Source: Clostridia bacterium (lineage in GTDB: Bacteria > Bacillota > Clostridia > Lachnospirales > CAG-274). From it: 64,000 bases of DNA. The DNA is taken from positions 62,001 to 126,000 of the forward strand of contig JAUNGN010000003.1 of assembly GCA_030524425.1 (NCBI GenBank), given 5' to 3'. Numbering within the stretch: position 1 is the first letter of the stretch; every line of letters starts with the position of its first letter. The notes below the pieces were generated by a model. The model had not been told where the DNA came from and ran no database searches. It saw only the letters and a program-made list of their open reading frames with translations. Both the position numbers and the translations under genes were made by a program. Shown here one piece after another: positions 51,149-59,270 of this stretch.

Positions 51149-51165
51149 TATAGCAGGTGATTTTT

Positions 51166-52341
51166 ATGGCTGTTTCGTTAATAAATCTTTACAATAAAAT
51201 AAAAAGCATAGATGGACAGCAGATAGATTTGGTTGCAGGTGAAAAAGGACTGAACAATGTTGTAAGATGGGTGCATATAGTTGAAATAAATGAACTTACC
51301 TCTTTTCTTGAGGGCAATGAGCTAATATTTACAACAGGTATGACTATTAAAAATAATGAAGATTTGCTGGAGCTTGTAAAAGAAATATTTGAAAGTAAGG
51401 CAAGCGGACTTGTAATTAATACAGGTCCCTATATTGAAAGAATACCTGAGGAAATAATTGATTTTTGTAATGAAAGAGGTTTTCCTCTTTTTCGGGTTCC
51501 GTGGCAGGTTTATTTAGGTAAAACAATGAAAATCTGTGCTGAAGAAATAAACAAGGCAGACCAGAGGAGTATGGAAATTTCAGCAGCTATACAAAATTCG
51601 TTTTTTAATCCTGACAATCACAATTTGTACATACCAATTCTTGAAAAATACGGGTTTCAGCAGGAATGGTCCTATTGTGTGGCGCTGGTTGAATATGTAA
51701 GTGATAATGATGATAATATAAATGATTTTATAGAAAAAATATGTAAGAATATAGAAAACAGTCTTACGTTTTATTCTGTTCATGTAAAGGTATTTTCAAT
51801 GGGCAATCAGATAGCGGTACTTTTTGTTAATCAGTCTGACAGCAGTTCATATGAAATTATGGAGCATATAAAACAAAGATGTGCTGTCTGTGACAGAGAT
51901 GACATTAAAGCATATATAGGCATAGGAAGAAATACAAACAGTGTCAGATGTATATATAAATCCTATAGAATTGCACATAAGGTTGTTGAACTGCAAAAGA
52001 AAAAACAGAAGTATAATGAGGTTATGTCTTACAGAAGTATGGGATTTTCAAAAATATTCCTTGCAATGGAGGATACTGAAATTATGCATGAATACTACAG
52101 TGATGTGCTGGAACCTCTTGTAAGATATGATATACTTAACAATACCGACTTTACCGACTTTCTTAATATTTATTTTGAATGCGGTTCTTCGGTTAAAACA
52201 ACATCAGAGAAACTTTTTTTACACAGGAATACCGTTAACTATAAACTAAGCAAAATACAGGATATTCTGGGTTGTGATTTATCGGATTTTAATACAAAAA
52301 CAGAGTTGTTAATAGCGCTTAAATTAAAGGAAATATTGTAA
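51166..52341 (+). CDS. PucR-family transcriptional regulator
   Basis: A 391-residue regulator with an N-terminal PucR sensor domain (VRWVHIVEINELTSFLEGNELIFTTGM, residues 36-62) and a C-terminal HTH_30 domain (SSVKTTSEKLFLHRNTVNYKLSKIQDILG). The ATG at 51166 is chosen (CAGGTG SD); a GTG at 51157 would overlap the SD. PucR proteins usually control purine, amine or other nitrogen-compound catabolism. It lies immediately upstream of the aminotransferase operon and is the best candidate for its regulator. Confidence 0.9.
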   Translation: MAVSLINLYNKIKSIDGQQIDLVAGEKGLNNVVRWVHIVEINELTSFLEGNELIFTTGMTIKNNEDLLELVKEIFESKASGLVINTGPYIERIPEEIIDFCNERGFPLFRVPWQVYLGKTMKICAEEINKADQRSMEISAAIQNSFFNPDNHNLYIPILEKYGFQQEWSYCVALVEYVSDNDDNINDFIEKICKNIENSLTFYSVHVKVFSMGNQIAVLFVNQSDSSSYEIMEHIKQRCAVCDRDDIKAYIGIGRNTNSVRCIYKSYRIAHKVVELQKKKQKYNEVMSYRSMGFSKIFLAMEDTEIMHEYYSDVLEPLVRYDILNNTDFTDFLNIYFECGSSVKTTSEKLFLHRNTVNYKLSKIQDILGCDLSDFNTKTELLIALKLKEIL

Positions 52342-52478: not shown

Positions 52479-52507
52479 TTGTTACAATGGGGCGGGATGA
52501 GTATAAT
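52479..52507 (+). promoter_or_regulatory. Promoter of the aminotransferase/PII/ABC operon
   Basis: TTGTTA (52479-52484), 17 bp, TATAAT (52502-52507). The weak -35 fits an activated promoter. Confidence 0.6.
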
Positions 52508-52562: not shown

Positions 52563-53903
52563 ATGGCAAAATTAAGCGGTAAAGAAGTTAAGACACTGCA
52601 TCAGCAGTATGTTATGCAGTCATGGGCTAAGTCAGGCTCATCTGCAATCCCTGTTGAAAGGGCAGAGGGCATTTATTTTTGGGATTATGACGGCAAGAAA
52701 TATGCGGATATGTCTTCTCTTTTAGTTTGTTCAAATTTAGGACATCAGAACAGGGAAATTGTAAATGCTATCAAGGAGCAGGCAGATAAAATGTGCTTTA
52801 TGGCGCCTGCCTATGCAACTGAGGCTAAGTCACTTCTTGCTAAAAAGCTTTGTGAGACAGCAGGTGCAGATACATATAAAAGAGTATTCTTTACAAATGG
52901 CGGTGCCGAATCAAATGAAAATGCTATTAAAATGGCAAGGATGGTAACAGGCAGAAGCAAGATTTTCAGCTGCTACAGAAGCTATCATGGTGCTACACTT
53001 GGTGCATCAAATGCTTCAGGTGACTGGAGAAGATTTGCAGCTGAAATTGGAGGTGCAAACGGTTTTGTAAAATTCATGAACCCTCATATGTATCAGGATG
53101 GATATACAAGAGGCGTTGATGATAAGGAATGCACTCAAAAGTACTTAAAAGCTCTTGAAACTCAGCTTCATTATGAGGGTACAGAAAATGTTGCAGCGAT
53201 TCTTATGGAAAGTATTGTAGGTGCAAATGGTGTTATTATTCCTCCTGACGGATATATGGAGGGGGTAAGAGCCCTATGTGACAAGTATGGAATTTTAATG
53301 ATCTGTGATGAAGTTATGGCAGGCTTTGCAAGAACAGGAAAGATGTTTTGCTGGCAGAATTTTGATATTAAGCCTGATATGATTACGTTTGCAAAGGGTG
53401 TTACCTGCGGCTATGTTCAGCTTGGCGGTGTAATTGTTAATGAAAAGGTTGCCAAGTATTTTGAAGAAAATATTTTACAGTGCGGTCTGACATACAGTGG
53501 TCACACCTTAGCCTGTGCGGCAGGTGTTGCTGCAGTTGATTATTATACAGAGCATAATGTTTGCGGACATGTAGTTAAAATGGGTAAAATATTATCAGAT
53601 TTTCTTGATAAAATGGCTGAAAAGCACAAGTGCATCGGTGAAGCAAGATGTATCGGTTTATTTGCTGCTTTGGAAGTTGTTAAGGATAAGGAAAAGAGAA
53701 TACCAATGGTTGAGTATGGTGAGCATTCTCCTGTTATGCCAAGTATTATGGCAGAACTTAAAAAGAGGGGTTTCTCAACCTTTGGCAGAGAAAATAATAT
53801 TAATATTTGTCCTCCACTCATAATTACGGAGGAGGAATTAAATGAGTATCTTCCAATACTTGATGAGGTATTGACATGGGTAGACGAAACTTATTGTGAT
53901 TAA
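52563..53903 (+). CDS. Class III aminotransferase, probable taurine (or omega-amino acid) aminotransferase
   Basis: A 446-residue PLP enzyme. The PLP Asp is in LMICDEVMAGFARTG (about residue 243), the Schiff-base Lys in TFAKGVTCGYVQLGG (about 275), and the cofactor-binding region is FTNGGAESNENAIKMAR. Length and motifs fit omega-aminotransferases such as taurine:pyruvate aminotransferase (Tpa). The specific call rests on context: an Fe-ADH, a sulfonate-type ABC importer and a TauE/SafE exporter follow. Beta-alanine or another omega-amine remains possible. ATG at 52563 with GGAGG SD. Confidence 0.8.
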   Translation: MAKLSGKEVKTLHQQYVMQSWAKSGSSAIPVERAEGIYFWDYDGKKYADMSSLLVCSNLGHQNREIVNAIKEQADKMCFMAPAYATEAKSLLAKKLCETAGADTYKRVFFTNGGAESNENAIKMARMVTGRSKIFSCYRSYHGATLGASNASGDWRRFAAEIGGANGFVKFMNPHMYQDGYTRGVDDKECTQKYLKALETQLHYEGTENVAAILMESIVGANGVIIPPDGYMEGVRALCDKYGILMICDEVMAGFARTGKMFCWQNFDIKPDMITFAKGVTCGYVQLGGVIVNEKVAKYFEENILQCGLTYSGHTLACAAGVAAVDYYTEHNVCGHVVKMGKILSDFLDKMAEKHKCIGEARCIGLFAALEVVKDKEKRIPMVEYGEHSPVMPSIMAELKKRGFSTFGRENNINICPPLIITEEELNEYLPILDEVLTWVDETYCD

Positions 53904-53913
53904 GGGTGATTAT

Positions 53914-55032
53914 ATGAATTGGAATTATGAACAGCCTGTTTCAATTATTTTTGGAAATGGCAGAATAAAAGAATTAAATGATATTATCAAAAAAGCAGGA
54001 GGAAGTAATGGACTTCTTGTAATACCTGAGCATTTTGCTGAAAGGGGTACAGCTAATAATATTATGGAATTATCTGAAGGTACTATTACAACAATGTTTA
54101 CTGATGTATCACCAAATCCTGATGTTACAGAAGTAGATAAGTGTGCCGAAGTAATAAAAGAAAATAAATGTGATTTTATTGTGGCGGCAGGCGGCGGCTC
54201 AGTAATGGATTGTGCAAAAGCGGCAGCAACAATTTGTACCGTTGAAGATACCATTCGTTCTTATCACGGTACAGGAAAGGCTTTGCCTGAAACTCATCTT
54301 CCTCTTATTGCTGTACCAACTACATCAGGTACAGGGAGTGAGGTAACATGTGTGGCAGTACTGACAGACAGAGAAAACGGAAAAAAATCACCTATTGTAT
54401 GTGATAATTTTTTCCCTTCATATGCCGTTATTGACCCTGAACTTACTTATTCGGTTCCTCCGTCTGTTACGGCTAATACAGGTATGGATGTATTGTGCCA
54501 TGCAATAGAGGGCTTTTGGAGCAGGGGACATCAGCCTGTATGTGATGCTTGTGCATTACATGCAGCAGAGCTTGTTTTTAAATATTTGTTAAAGGCTTAT
54601 TATAATCCTGTGGATACTGAAGCAAGAGAAAAAATGGCAGAAGCATCGGTTATAGCAGGCTTAGCATTTACATTGCCAAAGACAACTTCGTCTCATGCAT
54701 GCAGTTTTCCTTTGACTAATATTTATCATATTCCTCATGGAGAGGCCTGCGCATTAACTCTTGATTATTTTGCAAGAATAAATAAGGATGCTGAGGAGGG
54801 CAGAATTCAGAAATTTGCTGAAAAGCTTGGTTTTGAAAACGTTGATAAAATGGCGGACAAAATTTATGAACTTAAAAAGGAAATGGGTATGAAATGTGAC
54901 CTTAAGGAATATAACCTCAGTGATGAGCAGATTGATGAGCTTGTTAAAATAAGCATGCATCCAAATTTATTAAATAATCCCGTTGATATAACAGACGATA
55001 TGCTTTATGAAATGTATAACTCAATGAGATAG
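53914..55032 (+). CDS. Iron-containing alcohol dehydrogenase, probable sulfoacetaldehyde reductase
   Basis: A 372-residue group III alcohol dehydrogenase. The NAD-binding AAGGGSVMDCAKAAA (about residues 89-103), PTTSGTGSEVT, and the metal-ligand segments DVLCHAIEGFW and SSHACSFPLTNIYHIPHGEA are present. Next to a taurine-type aminotransferase it most likely reduces sulfoacetaldehyde to isethionate (SarD-like). If the amine is beta-alanine, it would instead make 3-hydroxypropionate. ATG at 53914. Confidence 0.78.
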   Translation: MNWNYEQPVSIIFGNGRIKELNDIIKKAGGSNGLLVIPEHFAERGTANNIMELSEGTITTMFTDVSPNPDVTEVDKCAEVIKENKCDFIVAAGGGSVMDCAKAAATICTVEDTIRSYHGTGKALPETHLPLIAVPTTSGTGSEVTCVAVLTDRENGKKSPIVCDNFFPSYAVIDPELTYSVPPSVTANTGMDVLCHAIEGFWSRGHQPVCDACALHAAELVFKYLLKAYYNPVDTEAREKMAEASVIAGLAFTLPKTTSSHACSFPLTNIYHIPHGEACALTLDYFARINKDAEEGRIQKFAEKLGFENVDKMADKIYELKKEMGMKCDLKEYNLSDEQIDELVKISMHPNLLNNPVDITDDMLYEMYNSMR

Positions 55033-55042
55033 GAGTGATATT

Positions 55043-55366
55043 ATGAAAATGATAAGGGCTATAATCAGACCTGAAAAAACCGATGATGTGCTTAAAGCTT
55101 TGGTTGAGGAGGGCTTTCCTTCAGTAACAAAGGCTGAAGTTTATGGGCGTGGTAAGCAGATGGGTATAAAAATCGGTGAAGTTTTTTATGACGAACTGCC
55201 AAAGGAAATGCTTATTATAGTTGCAGAAGATGAAAATGAAGAAACCATTGTGAATATTATTACCGAAAATGCAAAGACAGGCTCAGGTAATTTTGGTGAT
55301 GGCAGAATTTTCGTAACTACAATAGAAAAAGCTTATACAATAAGCTCAAAGTCAGAGGGTCTATAA
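55043..55366 (+). CDS. nifI1: PII-family regulator, NifI1 type
   Basis: A 107-residue PII protein. MKMIRAIIRPEKTDDVLKAL, TKAEVYGRGKQMGIKIGEVFYDELPKEML and KTGSGNFGDGRIFVTTIEKAYTI match NifI1 (GlnB-like, from between nifH and nifD) better than GlnB or GlnK: the T-loop is short and lacks the uridylylated Tyr context. NifI1/NifI2 sense 2-oxoglutarate and ATP and bind nitrogenase in diazotrophs. No nif genes are in this window. It is 10 bp after the ADH and paired with nifI2. Confidence 0.82.
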   Translation: MKMIRAIIRPEKTDDVLKALVEEGFPSVTKAEVYGRGKQMGIKIGEVFYDELPKEMLIIVAEDENEETIVNIITENAKTGSGNFGDGRIFVTTIEKAYTISSKSEGL

Positions 55367-55382
55367 TAGGAGGTGCTTTACT

Positions 55383-55712
55383 ATGGTTGAAATAATAGCA
55401 ATAGTACGTCCAAATAAAACACAGGCAACTAAAAAGGCCTTAATTGAAGCCGGCTGTCCCGGATATACATGTCAGAAGGTTATGGGCAGAGGCAAAAAAA
55501 CTGTTAAGATTCACTTGGAAGACGGCTCTCTTATTAAAACGCAGCTTATTTCAAAGAGATTTTTTATAATAATAGTTGAAGATGAAAAGGCCGATATGGT
55601 CATACAAAAAATTATGGATGTAAATCATACCGGTGAACCGGGGGATGGTAAGGTGTTTGTTTCACCTGTTACCAATACATACAGTGTAAGAACCGGTAAA
55701 ATTAATAATTAA
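55383..55712 (+). CDS. nifI2: PII-family regulator, NifI2 type
   Basis: A 109-residue PII protein. MVEIIAIVRPNKTQATKKALIEAG, MGRGKKTVKIHLEDGSLIKTQLISKRFFIIIVEDEK and NHTGEPGDGKVFVSPV match NifI2, with its longer hydrophilic T-loop and LISKR motif. It would form hetero-oligomers with NifI1. Separated from nifI1 by 16 bp with an AGGAGG SD. The likely target here is the transporter encoded just downstream, by analogy with PII control of cyanobacterial nitrate and urea ABC systems. Confidence 0.82.
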   Translation: MVEIIAIVRPNKTQATKKALIEAGCPGYTCQKVMGRGKKTVKIHLEDGSLIKTQLISKRFFIIIVEDEKADMVIQKIMDVNHTGEPGDGKVFVSPVTNTYSVRTGKINN

Positions 55713-55791: not shown

Positions 55792-56577
55792 ATGGTAAAG
55801 AAAAAAGGCAAAATCTCTTCTGAGAAAATTATCTCAATAGCTGCCGTTATAATAATACTTGTTTTTTGGTGGGTAGCAACTCATATGGGCTGGACAAATG
55901 AAAAGCTTATCCCCACGCCTGAAAAAACTTTTGCGGCTTTTGCGGAGGTTTTAAGCAAAGGCTATAAGGGACATACATTGCTGCAGCATATAGGAGCAAG
56001 TATGGAAAGACTCTTTATAGCTTTCTTTTGGGCCTTTGTAATAGCTGTACCTCTTGGACTTATAAGCGGTTTCAGTTCAAAGGTAAGGGCAGCCCTTGAG
56101 CCAATTATTGAGTTTTACAGACCATTGCCTCCCCTTGCATATTATACACTTTTAACATTGGCGCTTGGTATTGAGAATGAATCAAAGATAGCGTTGCTGT
56201 TTTTAGCTTGTTTTGCTCCCATATATGTGTCTTGTGTATCAGCAGTTGCAAGAATTAAGCAGGATTACATATTATCTGCATATACAGTTGGTGCAAATAA
56301 GGTACAGGTGTTCTGGTATGTTATTTTCCCATCCTGTCTTGCAGATATGTTTGTAGGTTTGAGAACGGCTATAGGTGTGGCTTATACCACTCTTGTTGCG
56401 GCCGAAATGGTCGCAGCTACATCAGGTATAGGCTGGATGGTGCTTGACGCAGGTAATTGGTTCAGAAATGACATTATTTTTGTAGGCATTATTGTAATGG
56501 GTATTACAGGTTTGTTTATCGATTTTATATTAAAGTTTATAGAAAAAAGGATAGTGCCTTGGAGTGGTAAAGATTGA
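55792..56577 (+). CDS. ABC transporter permease (taurine/sulfonate/nitrate type)
   Basis: A 261-residue SsuC/TauC-type permease with six membrane helices. The EAA-like loop is YTVGANKVQVFWYVIFPSCLADMFVGLRTAIGVAYTTLVAAEM near residues 165-205 (key motif GA..vFW.V.FP..l...f.glR...g.a). Substrate of the family: taurine, alkanesulfonates, nitrate, or thiamine precursors; context favours taurine. Its SBP and ATPase follow directly. Confidence 0.85.
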   Translation: MVKKKGKISSEKIISIAAVIIILVFWWVATHMGWTNEKLIPTPEKTFAAFAEVLSKGYKGHTLLQHIGASMERLFIAFFWAFVIAVPLGLISGFSSKVRAALEPIIEFYRPLPPLAYYTLLTLALGIENESKIALLFLACFAPIYVSCVSAVARIKQDYILSAYTVGANKVQVFWYVIFPSCLADMFVGLRTAIGVAYTTLVAAEMVAATSGIGWMVLDAGNWFRNDIIFVGIIVMGITGLFIDFILKFIEKRIVPWSGKD

Positions 56578-56614: not shown

Positions 56615-57661
56615 ATGAAGATGAAGAAATTTTTAGCAGGAATAACGGCGTTGGTTTTAAGTTTTTCGGCTTTTACAGGCTGCGGAAGTACATCACAAGG
56701 TGATGGTGCAGGAGAGGTTTCTAATGATGGCAGTGAAGTTACAAAGGTAATCATAGGTACTCAGGAGATGCCAAATGATGAGGGTATTTCAAAGGCGCTT
56801 GATTACTTTAAGGATGAAATGGGGGTAGATGTTGAGCTTAAGAAGTTTGATTCAGGCAAGGATGTTAATACGGCAATAGCTTCAGGAAGTATTGATTTTG
56901 GTCTTATGGGTACTTGTCCCGCATCTCTTGCTATAGCACAGGATTTAGGAGTTGAATTTATATGGATTCATGAGGTTTTAGGCAGTGTTGAATCTTTAGT
57001 TGCAAGAAATGAAACAGGCATTACTGCCGTTGCTGATTTAAAGGGCAAAAAGGTAGCGGTTCCTTTTGCGTCAACAGCTCATTTTTCCTTGCTTAAGGCT
57101 ATTGAGGACGCAGGAATGACAGCTGAAGATGTTGAGATTCTTGACCTTGCAACAGATAAAATTTATGCTTCATGGGAAAACGGTGATATTGATGCGGCTT
57201 ATATATGGCAGCCAACCCTTGCTGAATTAAAGGATCAGACTGTTATTTTAACAAGTGAGGATATGGCAGATAAGGGTTATATGACAGCTAATGTTGAGGT
57301 TGTCAGAAAAGAATTTGCCGATGCTAATCCTGAAATTGTAGCAGGCTACATTAGAGCTCTTGACAAGGCGGTTAAGCTATATAATTCAGATAAGTCTGCC
57401 GCAGTTTCAGCTATTTCCTCATCAATGCAGTTAGAGGAAAGTGATGCTGAATTCCAAATGGCAGGTTCAAAATGGCTTACGGCTGAGGAACAGACAGGTG
57501 CAGATTATTTGGGTACAAGCGAAGCAAAGGGTGCAGTTGTAAAGAATCTTATGGATACTGCCGAATTCTTAAAGAGTCAGGGCTCAATTCAGGAAGTGCC
57601 TGCCCGGGAGATATTTGAGGCTGCTGTAAATCCAAGCTATATTGAGGCAGCTTTAAAGTAA
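56615..57661 (+). CDS. ABC transporter substrate-binding lipoprotein (taurine/sulfonate type)
   Basis: A 348-residue NMT1/SsuA-like binding protein. The signal peptide ends AFTGC, with the lipid-modified Cys near residue 23. The mature chain has FGLMGTCPASLAIAQDLGVEFIWIHEV and VADLKGKKVAVPFASTAHFSL, characteristic of the TauA/SsuA family. It should present the aminosulfonate to the permease. Between permease and ATPase genes. Confidence 0.85.
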   Translation: MKMKKFLAGITALVLSFSAFTGCGSTSQGDGAGEVSNDGSEVTKVIIGTQEMPNDEGISKALDYFKDEMGVDVELKKFDSGKDVNTAIASGSIDFGLMGTCPASLAIAQDLGVEFIWIHEVLGSVESLVARNETGITAVADLKGKKVAVPFASTAHFSLLKAIEDAGMTAEDVEILDLATDKIYASWENGDIDAAYIWQPTLAELKDQTVILTSEDMADKGYMTANVEVVRKEFADANPEIVAGYIRALDKAVKLYNSDKSAAVSAISSSMQLEESDAEFQMAGSKWLTAEEQTGADYLGTSEAKGAVVKNLMDTAEFLKSQGSIQEVPAREIFEAAVNPSYIEAALK

Positions 57662-57683: not shown

Positions 57684-58505
57684 ATGGAAGAATTGTTAAA
57701 GACTAATGATACAGTTGTATCAATTAAGAATGCCTATTTGAAATATGCAGGTGAAAGGGGAAGTGTTACTGCTCTTGAAAATATAAATCTTGATATAAAA
57801 AAGGGTGAATTTATATGTGTATTAGGCCCCTCCGGCTGTGGTAAGTCAACATTATTAAAGATTATTGCGGGTTTTCATCAGCCTACTGAGGGCGAAGCCT
57901 TAATGGGAGGAATCACTCCCATTAAGGGACCTGATTGGGAAAGAGGCGTAGTTTTTCAGGCACCTACACTTTATCCATGGATGAATATTTATCAGAATGT
58001 GGAATTCGGACCTAAAATGAGAAAAATACCAAAGGAGAAAATAAAAGAAGATGTAACAAAGTATCTTGAACTGGTAGGTTTAAAAGATTTTGCAAAGCAG
58101 AAACCTTATGAGCTTTCAGGCGGTATGAGGCAAAGGGCATCTCTTGCAAGAGTTTTGGTAAATAATCCGAGTATGATACTTATGGATGAGCCTTTTGGTG
58201 CTCTTGATGCTTTGACAAGACAAAACATGCAGACTTTAGTAAGAGAAATATGGAATAAAACAGGGAATACAATATTCCTTATAACTCACGACGTTGATGA
58301 AGCACTTGCACTTGCAACAAGAGTAATAGTAATGTCATCAAGACCCGGCAGAATTGTAAAGGAATTTAACACGGAATTTACTTATGATTTGGGCGGTGCA
58401 AATGAAGAGGCTGCAAAGTACTCACCTGAATATATGCATATAAGAGAAGAAATACTTAATATTATTAATGCACAGAACAGTGCATTGAAAACAAGTGAAG
58501 TATAG
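57684..58505 (+). CDS. ABC transporter ATP-binding protein (taurine/sulfonate type)
   Basis: A 273-residue TauB/SsuB-type ATPase: Walker A GPSGCGKSTLLKI, Q-loop GVVFQAPTLYPWM, signature ELSGGMRQRASLARVL, Walker B MILMDEPFGALD, H-loop LITHDVDEAL. A C-terminal tail of about 40 residues follows. It energises the importer and is the most plausible contact for the PII proteins if they gate transport. Confidence 0.88.
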   Translation: MEELLKTNDTVVSIKNAYLKYAGERGSVTALENINLDIKKGEFICVLGPSGCGKSTLLKIIAGFHQPTEGEALMGGITPIKGPDWERGVVFQAPTLYPWMNIYQNVEFGPKMRKIPKEKIKEDVTKYLELVGLKDFAKQKPYELSGGMRQRASLARVLVNNPSMILMDEPFGALDALTRQNMQTLVREIWNKTGNTIFLITHDVDEALALATRVIVMSSRPGRIVKEFNTEFTYDLGGANEEAAKYSPEYMHIREEILNIINAQNSALKTSEV

Positions 58506-58517
58506 TAAATTGTTTAT

Positions 58518-58547
58518 GGATATTGCAGTTATGTAATATCCTTTTTT
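58518..58547 (+). terminator. Stem-loop before the TauE/SafE gene
   Basis: GGATATT (58518-58524) and AATATCC (58535-58541) followed by TTTTTT. It probably allows partial read-through into the exporter gene. Confidence 0.7.
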
Positions 58548-58559
58548 AGAGGTATTGTA

Positions 58560-59270
58560 ATGTTAAACAAAATTATTTTTATGATAGTGCTTTTTTTAGC
58601 CAATACAATTCAGATAATTACAGGATTTGCAGGTAATATGCTTGCCATGCCGCCTTCAATGATTTTAGTCGGATATGAGAGTTCAAAGACTGTATTGAAT
58701 ATTTTTACTTTAGCGGCTTGTGTATGGATTACATATAAGAATAGAAAAAATATACAGTGGAGAGTCCTGTTTAAAATGTGTTTTTTTATGCTTATAGGAA
58801 TGGCTGTGGGAATTAACATTATAAAGTGTTTTAATTTACAAATATTGTCATATATTTATGGTATAATGATTTTATGTATTGCTGTAAAAAAGCTGTTTAC
58901 TAAAAATCAAATAAAACTTCCTAAAGAATTAATGATAATTATTCTGTTTTTTGCGGGTGTTATTCATGGTATGTTTGTTTCCGGAGGGGCACTGCTTGTT
59001 ATATATGCTGTATGGGCATTGCCTGAAAAAGATAAATTCAGGGCAACTGTTGCGCCTGTGTGGGTTGTGCTTGGACTTATACTAATGTATTCACATTATA
59101 AATCAGGACTGTATACAAGTGAAAATTTAATACTCATATTTATAAGTATAGTACCTCTTGTTTTATCAATAAAGATTGGGAATATATTATATGATAAAAT
59201 AAATCAGCAGACTTTTTTGAGGATTACTTATATTTTGCTTATAATTGCAGCCATATTTGTTTTTATTTAG
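58560..59270 (+). CDS. TauE/SafE family membrane exporter
   Basis: A 236-residue protein with seven to eight membrane helices. IITGFAGNMLAMPPSMILVGYE near the N-terminus and the second half-repeat FAGVIHGMFVSGGALLVIYA (about residues 130-149) are the two GF/GxxG repeats of TauE/SafE. Family members export sulfite, sulfoacetate or related anions. As the last gene of this cluster it may export isethionate or another deaminated sulfonate. Confidence 0.82.
   Translation: MLNKIIFMIVLFLANTIQIITGFAGNMLAMPPSMILVGYESSKTVLNIFTLAACVWITYKNRKNIQWRVLFKMCFFMLIGMAVGINIIKCFNLQILSYIYGIMILCIAVKKLFTKNQIKLPKELMIIILFFAGVIHGMFVSGGALLVIYAVWALPEKDKFRATVAPVWVVLGLILMYSHYKSGLYTSENLILIFISIVPLVLSIKIGNILYDKINQQTFLRITYILLIIAAIFVFI

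Follow-up and report, generated by a model that had tools for sequence, protein, structure and literature searches.

In methanogens, the genes for the paired PII proteins NifI1 and NifI2 have been described as always located in the nitrogenase operon (PMC8395244). Both subunits are needed on nitrogenase, where the block is lifted by 2-oxoglutarate together with Mg-ATP (PMC9765008). Transporters are controlled by PII proteins in other systems. GlnK is encoded beside the transporter it closes, AmtB, and is released by 2-oxoglutarate and Mg-ATP, which are bound by Arg9, Gln39 and Lys58 (PMC8395244). Cyanobacterial PII binds the ATPases NrtC/NrtD and UrtE of ABC importers for nitrogen compounds (PMC6603209), and in Lentilactobacillus, a member of the Firmicutes, the PII-like protein PotN is tied to the ABC importer PotABCD (PDB 7o4x). 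PotN is reported to be an energy-state sensor, according to the title of FEBS J 2022 289:5305 (cited in PMC9692440).

Here we describe a NifI1/NifI2 pair in a taurine-type operon. With a probability of roughly 0.7 we read it as a NifI switch no longer tied to nitrogenase and now directed at a TauABC importer; the hetero-oligomer, the binding partner and the direction of control are inferred. The pair resembles the NifI1/NifI2 of nif operons (Methanococcus maripaludis; PDB 9p1x complex) in its two clades, tandem order, short NifI1 T-loop and the PII ligand residues of NifI1. It differs in that the genome lacks nitrogenase, the operon is one of taurine import and catabolism, and the NifI2 T-loop is shortened. 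Whereas cyanobacterial PII is a single protein encoded elsewhere and acting on many targets, this is a dedicated pair inside the operon of the importer. GlnK-AmtB differs in involving a channel instead of an ABC importer, the GlnK clade and a single subunit. PotN is likewise a single protein and belongs to another PII subfamily: 7o4x was near the bottom of the PDB matches, with 30 and 39 bits versus 103 and 85 for NifI chains, and there were no pot genes in the window operon.

The window, the whole stretch of 64,000 nucleotides that was analysed, encoded for two intact tandem PII proteins on the + strand, both matching PF00543 P-II (E 1e-23 for the first, 1e-22 for the second), in the following setting:

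51157..52341, + strand: PucR-family regulator, probable regulator of the operon (PF07905 and PF13556; PucR genes are recurrent in taurine-type NifI operons)
52479..52507, + strand: sigma-70-like promoter 5' of the operon, weak evidence (10/12 match)
52563..53903, + strand: Toa, taurine:2-oxoglutarate aminotransferase (top PDB chain 6jix, so named, 764 bits, E 3e-229)
53914..55032, + strand: TauF-type sulfoacetaldehyde reductase, isethionate forming (top PDB chain 6jko, 574 bits)
55043..55366, + strand: NifI1-type PII protein (PF00543, PDB match, trees)
55383..55712, + strand: NifI2-type PII protein with shortened T-loop (PF00543, PDB match, trees)
55792..56577, + strand: TauC-like ABC importer permease (TauC model, 227 bits)
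56615..57661, + strand: TauA-like taurine-binding lipoprotein (TIGR01729, 218 bits, under the cut-off of 304)
57684..58505, + strand: TauB-like ABC importer ATPase, proposed target together with TauC (TauB model, 258 bits)
58518..58541, + strand: terminator-like hairpin 3' of tauB (10-pair stem, then a T run)
58560..59270, + strand: TauE/SafE-family exporter, probable isethionate exporter (PF01925)

The gene order on this strand is toa, tauF, NifI1, NifI2, tauC, tauA, tauB, the hairpin with its T run, and then tauE. Gaps are 10 bases between tauF and NifI1, 16 between NifI1 and NifI2, and 79 between NifI2 and tauC, and NifI1 precedes NifI2 as in nif-operon pairs. The promoter and the hairpin should be taken with caution: total promoter matches in the region were not above those in shuffled sequences, and the count of terminator-like sites was close to the shuffle mean. 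An Rfam search of the window operon found no riboswitch. NifI1 showed a dN/dS of about 0.02 against a copy from the same genus, and NifI2 was also under purifying selection, with silent changes saturated and only the direction informative. The PII reading frames differed mainly at silent sites and are therefore maintained genes. The structure predicted for NifI2 has a PII fold (pLDDT 91); the one predicted for NifI1 was of modest confidence with an uncertain T-loop and was left out of the argument.

The initial annotation had named the two proteins NifI1 and NifI2, and this held in trees and PDB matches. The top PDB match of NifI1 was 9p1x_H (103 bits; next a GlnK, 70 bits) and that of NifI2 was 9p1x_G (85 bits; next 72 bits). 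As entry 9p1x also contains nitrogenase alpha chains, its PII chains represent the NifI proteins of a nitrogenase complex. There are 12 chains of NifI1 type and 6 of NifI2 type in this entry. NifI1 was 55-57% identical to NifI1 proteins whose genes lie between nifH and nifD in same-order genomes. In trees built without one aberrant row and without L127 and L131, two AmtB fragments that had been mislabelled as PII, both proteins fell inside their NifI clades and separate from GlnK/GlnB, with support of 100/100 for NifI1 and 100/99 for NifI2. Gene identity and clade membership are thus shown. The alternative that these are ordinary GlnK/GlnB proteins resembling NifI by chance could point to the T-loop region of NifI2, which at 22 residues has the length found in GlnK. 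Against it stand the trees, the NifI-specific 18-residue T-loop of NifI1, the tandem order, the NifI chains as top PDB matches and the separate AmtB-fused GlnK of the same genome, so that it is all but excluded; a plain GlnK identity for both proteins was ruled out by the trees. Grouping with GlnK/AmtB-linked PII would have refuted the annotation, and neither protein did so.

That annotation had also placed the pair between an aminotransferase/Fe-ADH pair and an ABC importer with no nif gene in the window. This held, the aminotransferase belonging to class III, and could be extended to the whole genome (2.6 Mb, 97% complete), where family searches found neither nifH, for which there were only weak matches resembling ParA/MinD relatives, nor any NifD/K-family gene. 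A nif cluster elsewhere in the genome, which would likewise have counted against it, was not found in these searches. We treat the absence of nif genes as shown, with the caveat that metagenome-assembled genomes may miss genes. Five PII domains were found in this genome, namely the window pair, a second NifI pair and a GlnK-type domain fused to the C-terminus of AmtB in a single 576-residue protein (L007:5243-6973; C11 near 139281). The second pair lay in the gene order UAAP1, UAAP2, urea/guanidine carboxylase, allophanate hydrolase, NifI1, NifI2, permease, ATPase, binding protein. Just 3' of the binding-protein gene of this guanidine/urea carboxylase operon (L006:4858-6296) we observed transposase-like ORFs, with a second similar binding protein beyond them.

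The operon most likely takes nitrogen from taurine and discards isethionate, an assignment made from sequence alone that rests on the best PDB matches of Toa and TauF (6jix and 6jko). TauF is a sulfoacetaldehyde reductase in taurine-nitrogen assimilation (PMC6616044), and we take 6jko to be the TauF structure of that study. The content of the operon is shown and includes everything expected of Toa/TauF-type taurine-nitrogen use: aminotransferase, TauF reductase, TauABC and exporter, with no desulfonating enzyme nearby. A close taurine analogue remains possible as the real substrate, since TauA scored below the curated cut-off for taurine-binding proteins. The Bifidobacterium kashiwanohense cluster is similar in Toa, TauF, TauABC, the exporter and isethionate as waste, but no PII protein is mentioned for it in the text of PMC6616044, whose gene-cluster figures were outside our reading.

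To survey NifI loci outside nif clusters, we drew on a genome collection, of which the 80 best NifI1 relatives were taken, on two samples of 392 genomes and on a plasmid search. Such loci were rare: 70 of the 80 best relatives were in nif clusters and 10 were not, and most NifI1 matches in both genome samples were also in nif clusters. In all, 21 non-nif loci were found, 19 of them with a NifI1/NifI2 pair. Seven were of the taurine type, ten were linked to a guanidine/urea carboxylase (including Enterococcus raffinosus, Lactonifactor longoviformis and Murimonas intestini), and two were linked to UrtABCDE with urease or formamidase. One more contained amidohydrolases and a peptide-type ABC importer, and the last a glutamate-symporter-like protein. 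No described counterpart of NifI outside nif operons was found in the open-access literature searched, in keeping with the initial statement that no such system was known; subscription papers were outside the scope.

Whatever the pathway or enzyme order, an ABC importer gene directly adjoined the pair in 18 of the 19 pair-carrying loci, and this constant link is shown. The immediate neighbour was TauC in the taurine loci (6/6), a binding protein or permease in the carboxylase loci (10/10) and UrtE in the urea loci (2/2). The exception was L181 (5956-13232), in which the pair lay among amidohydrolases and an M20-type amidohydrolase, near but at a distance from the peptide-type ABC genes, and which represents a fourth kind of substrate. 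In L039, L040, L041 and Enterococcus raffinosus the pair headed the importer genes, away from the enzymes. In L172 it was co-stranded with permease and ATPase, with the UAAP, deiminase and carboxylase genes on the opposite strand behind a guanidine-I riboswitch, the only one found in a carboxylase locus. Because this riboswitch precedes the enzyme genes, guanidine is the likely substrate of the L172 pathway. L178 (284-2160) carried a lone NifI1-type PII directly 3' of genes for a sodium/glutamate-symporter-like protein and YtcJ-like amidohydrolases, another possible pairing of PII and transporter.

Two genomes in which the transporter has been exchanged indicated that the pair follows the ABC importer. 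In G101 the carboxylase operon is kept (64-88% identity), but an amino-acid permease takes the place of the ABC importer and one GlnK-type PII that of the NifI pair. G572 kept Toa-TauF, with an amino-acid permease in place of TauABC and one NifI1-like PII. A further comparison came from three operons (L223, L224, L225) whose Toa/TauF-like genes (53-56% identity) follow those for a glycyl-radical C-S lyase of the HpsG/IslA kind and its activase. The glycyl-radical enzyme (sulfopropanediol/isethionate lyase kind) was assigned by a model match in two of these operons, and in the other by its size and position. These are probably sulfonate-sulfur operons, in which the lyase would release sulfur, and no NifI or other PII was found in any of the three. 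This contrast between nitrogen and sulfur use thus rests on only three operons.

According to one rival explanation, the pair controls the catabolic enzymes (Toa and TauF here, carboxylase or allophanate hydrolase elsewhere), like cyanobacterial PII on acetylglutamate kinase. In its favor, tauF lies directly 5' of NifI1, the PII ligand 2-oxoglutarate is a substrate of Toa, and the lone NifI1 of G572 stays with Toa-TauF although TauABC is gone. Against it, the enzymes neighbouring the pair vary by pathway and are not adjacent in L039, L040, L041 and E. raffinosus, where importer genes adjoin; the G572 PII also has a transporter next to it; and G101 keeps the enzymes yet has neither ABC importer nor pair. 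We therefore regard enzyme control as unlikely. A second rival holds that the pair acts on transcription by capturing or releasing the PucR (taurine) or LuxR-type (guanidine) regulator. PII proteins do act on transcription factors or co-regulators elsewhere, as established for PipX and TnrA, and a regulator gene was near in most loci. However, the regulator families differ by pathway, the regulator gene has no fixed position, and neither E. raffinosus nor L172 showed one near the pair, which leaves this explanation with very little support.

The pair might also be a functionless relic of a lost nif cluster, for which it speaks that 9 of 12 genomes tested were without any NifD/K-type gene. This is contradicted by strong purifying selection, intact ligand residues and repeated linkage, and by genomes such as G457 and G361 that hold a carboxylase-linked pair besides a nif-linked one. 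The relic was rejected on selection and on this coexistence, and we consider it highly improbable.

All three ligand residues, Arg9, Gln39 and Lys58, are retained in the window NifI1, while in NifI2 Lys replaces the Mg-binding Gln39, as in many nif-linked NifI2; for NifI1 this retention is shown. The ruler for residue numbering was an E. coli GlnB sequence; group comparisons are independent of it, and GlnK rows gave the same 22. All 130 NifI1 proteins, of which 109 were nif-linked and 21 were not, had a T-loop region of 18 residues (GlnK 22). The window NifI1 T-loop was nearly identical to that of nif-linked NifI1, and nothing in NifI1 itself indicates a new target. In NifI2 the region had 22-28 residues in 19/19 non-nif proteins versus 26-42 in 113 nif-linked ones (rank test p 4e-13). 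This test was not corrected for relatedness, and as non-nif loci are related by descent it overstates independence. With 22 residues, versus 36-37 in its closest nif-linked relatives, the window NifI2 lacks the typical extended T-loop, which has not been shown to be essential. The remodelling as such is shown. Since PII contacts its targets through the T-loop (PMC8395244), the shortening of this loop is the expected trace of re-targeting via NifI2. Several carboxylase-linked NifI1 proteins (among those in L082, L085, L101 and L173) were without the ATP-loop glycine after Thr (TE, TD, TS or TP versus TG), and their nucleotide binding may differ.

Taurine- and urea-linked NifI2 proteins formed one clade (100/98) nested among nif-linked NifI2 proteins, most of which came from the same order (99/96 and 100/100), and the direction was therefore from nitrogenase to import operon. 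Carboxylase-linked pairs, together with L181, formed their own clade in both trees. A single origin of all importer-linked pairs was neither shown nor excluded (AU p 0.33 for NifI1, 0.21 for NifI2). Recruitment of the pair away from nitrogenase is well supported by the NifI2 nesting, the linkage to three or four organic-nitrogen pathways and the shortened NifI2 T-loop.

The initial proposal that a NifI switch was recruited to gate uptake or catabolism of an organic nitrogen source is thus supported. Uptake is likely the controlled step on comparative evidence, because the catabolic enzymes change from pathway to pathway and the ABC importer is the constant neighbour. That the two proteins form a hetero-oligomer, that they bind the transporter and that 2-oxoglutarate affects them is inferred. 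By analogy with NifI on nitrogenase and PII on NrtC/NrtD and UrtE, TauBC is expected to be shut by the pair under nitrogen sufficiency and opened as 2-oxoglutarate increases. With ample nitrogen (little 2-oxoglutarate, more ADP) the NifI1/NifI2 complex would bind the importer from the cytoplasm, at the TauB ATPase and/or at TauC, and taurine uptake would stop. In nitrogen shortage Mg-ATP and 2-oxoglutarate would bind, mainly via NifI1, and the importer would be released. Taurine would then enter, Toa would transfer its amino group to 2-oxoglutarate to form glutamate, TauF would reduce sulfoacetaldehyde to isethionate and TauE would export it, the sensed metabolite also being the amino acceptor of Toa. 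NifI2, with its remodelled T-loop, would probably determine which target is bound. This gating model has no data on interaction, uptake or ligands behind it. We considered whether TauB or TauC of NifI-linked operons carries an added segment for docking and dropped the idea, as comparison of lengths and ends with NifI-less TauB and TauC showed no clear extra domain.

A bolder reading, which taken as a whole may as well fail as hold, is that NifI1/NifI2 is a transferable gatekeeper of organic-nitrogen ABC importers in Firmicutes, where it would serve operons for taurine, guanidine, urea and amides. NifI1 would be the sensor that stays the same and NifI2 the exchangeable subunit that sets the target, redirected by T-loop shortening, with the pair serving ABC importers and a single PII serving one-protein permeases; recruitment from nitrogenase would have happened at least once, perhaps two or three times. 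With NifI pairs found in operons that import taurine, guanidine or urea, often in bacteria lacking nitrogenase, what was a nitrogenase-specific regulator becomes a general module, and the finding illustrates how such a regulator can acquire another target. It also offers a nitrogenase-free system for studying two-subunit PII function, and suggests that some anaerobic fermenting bacteria meter the uptake of taurine, a source of isethionate, by their nitrogen state.
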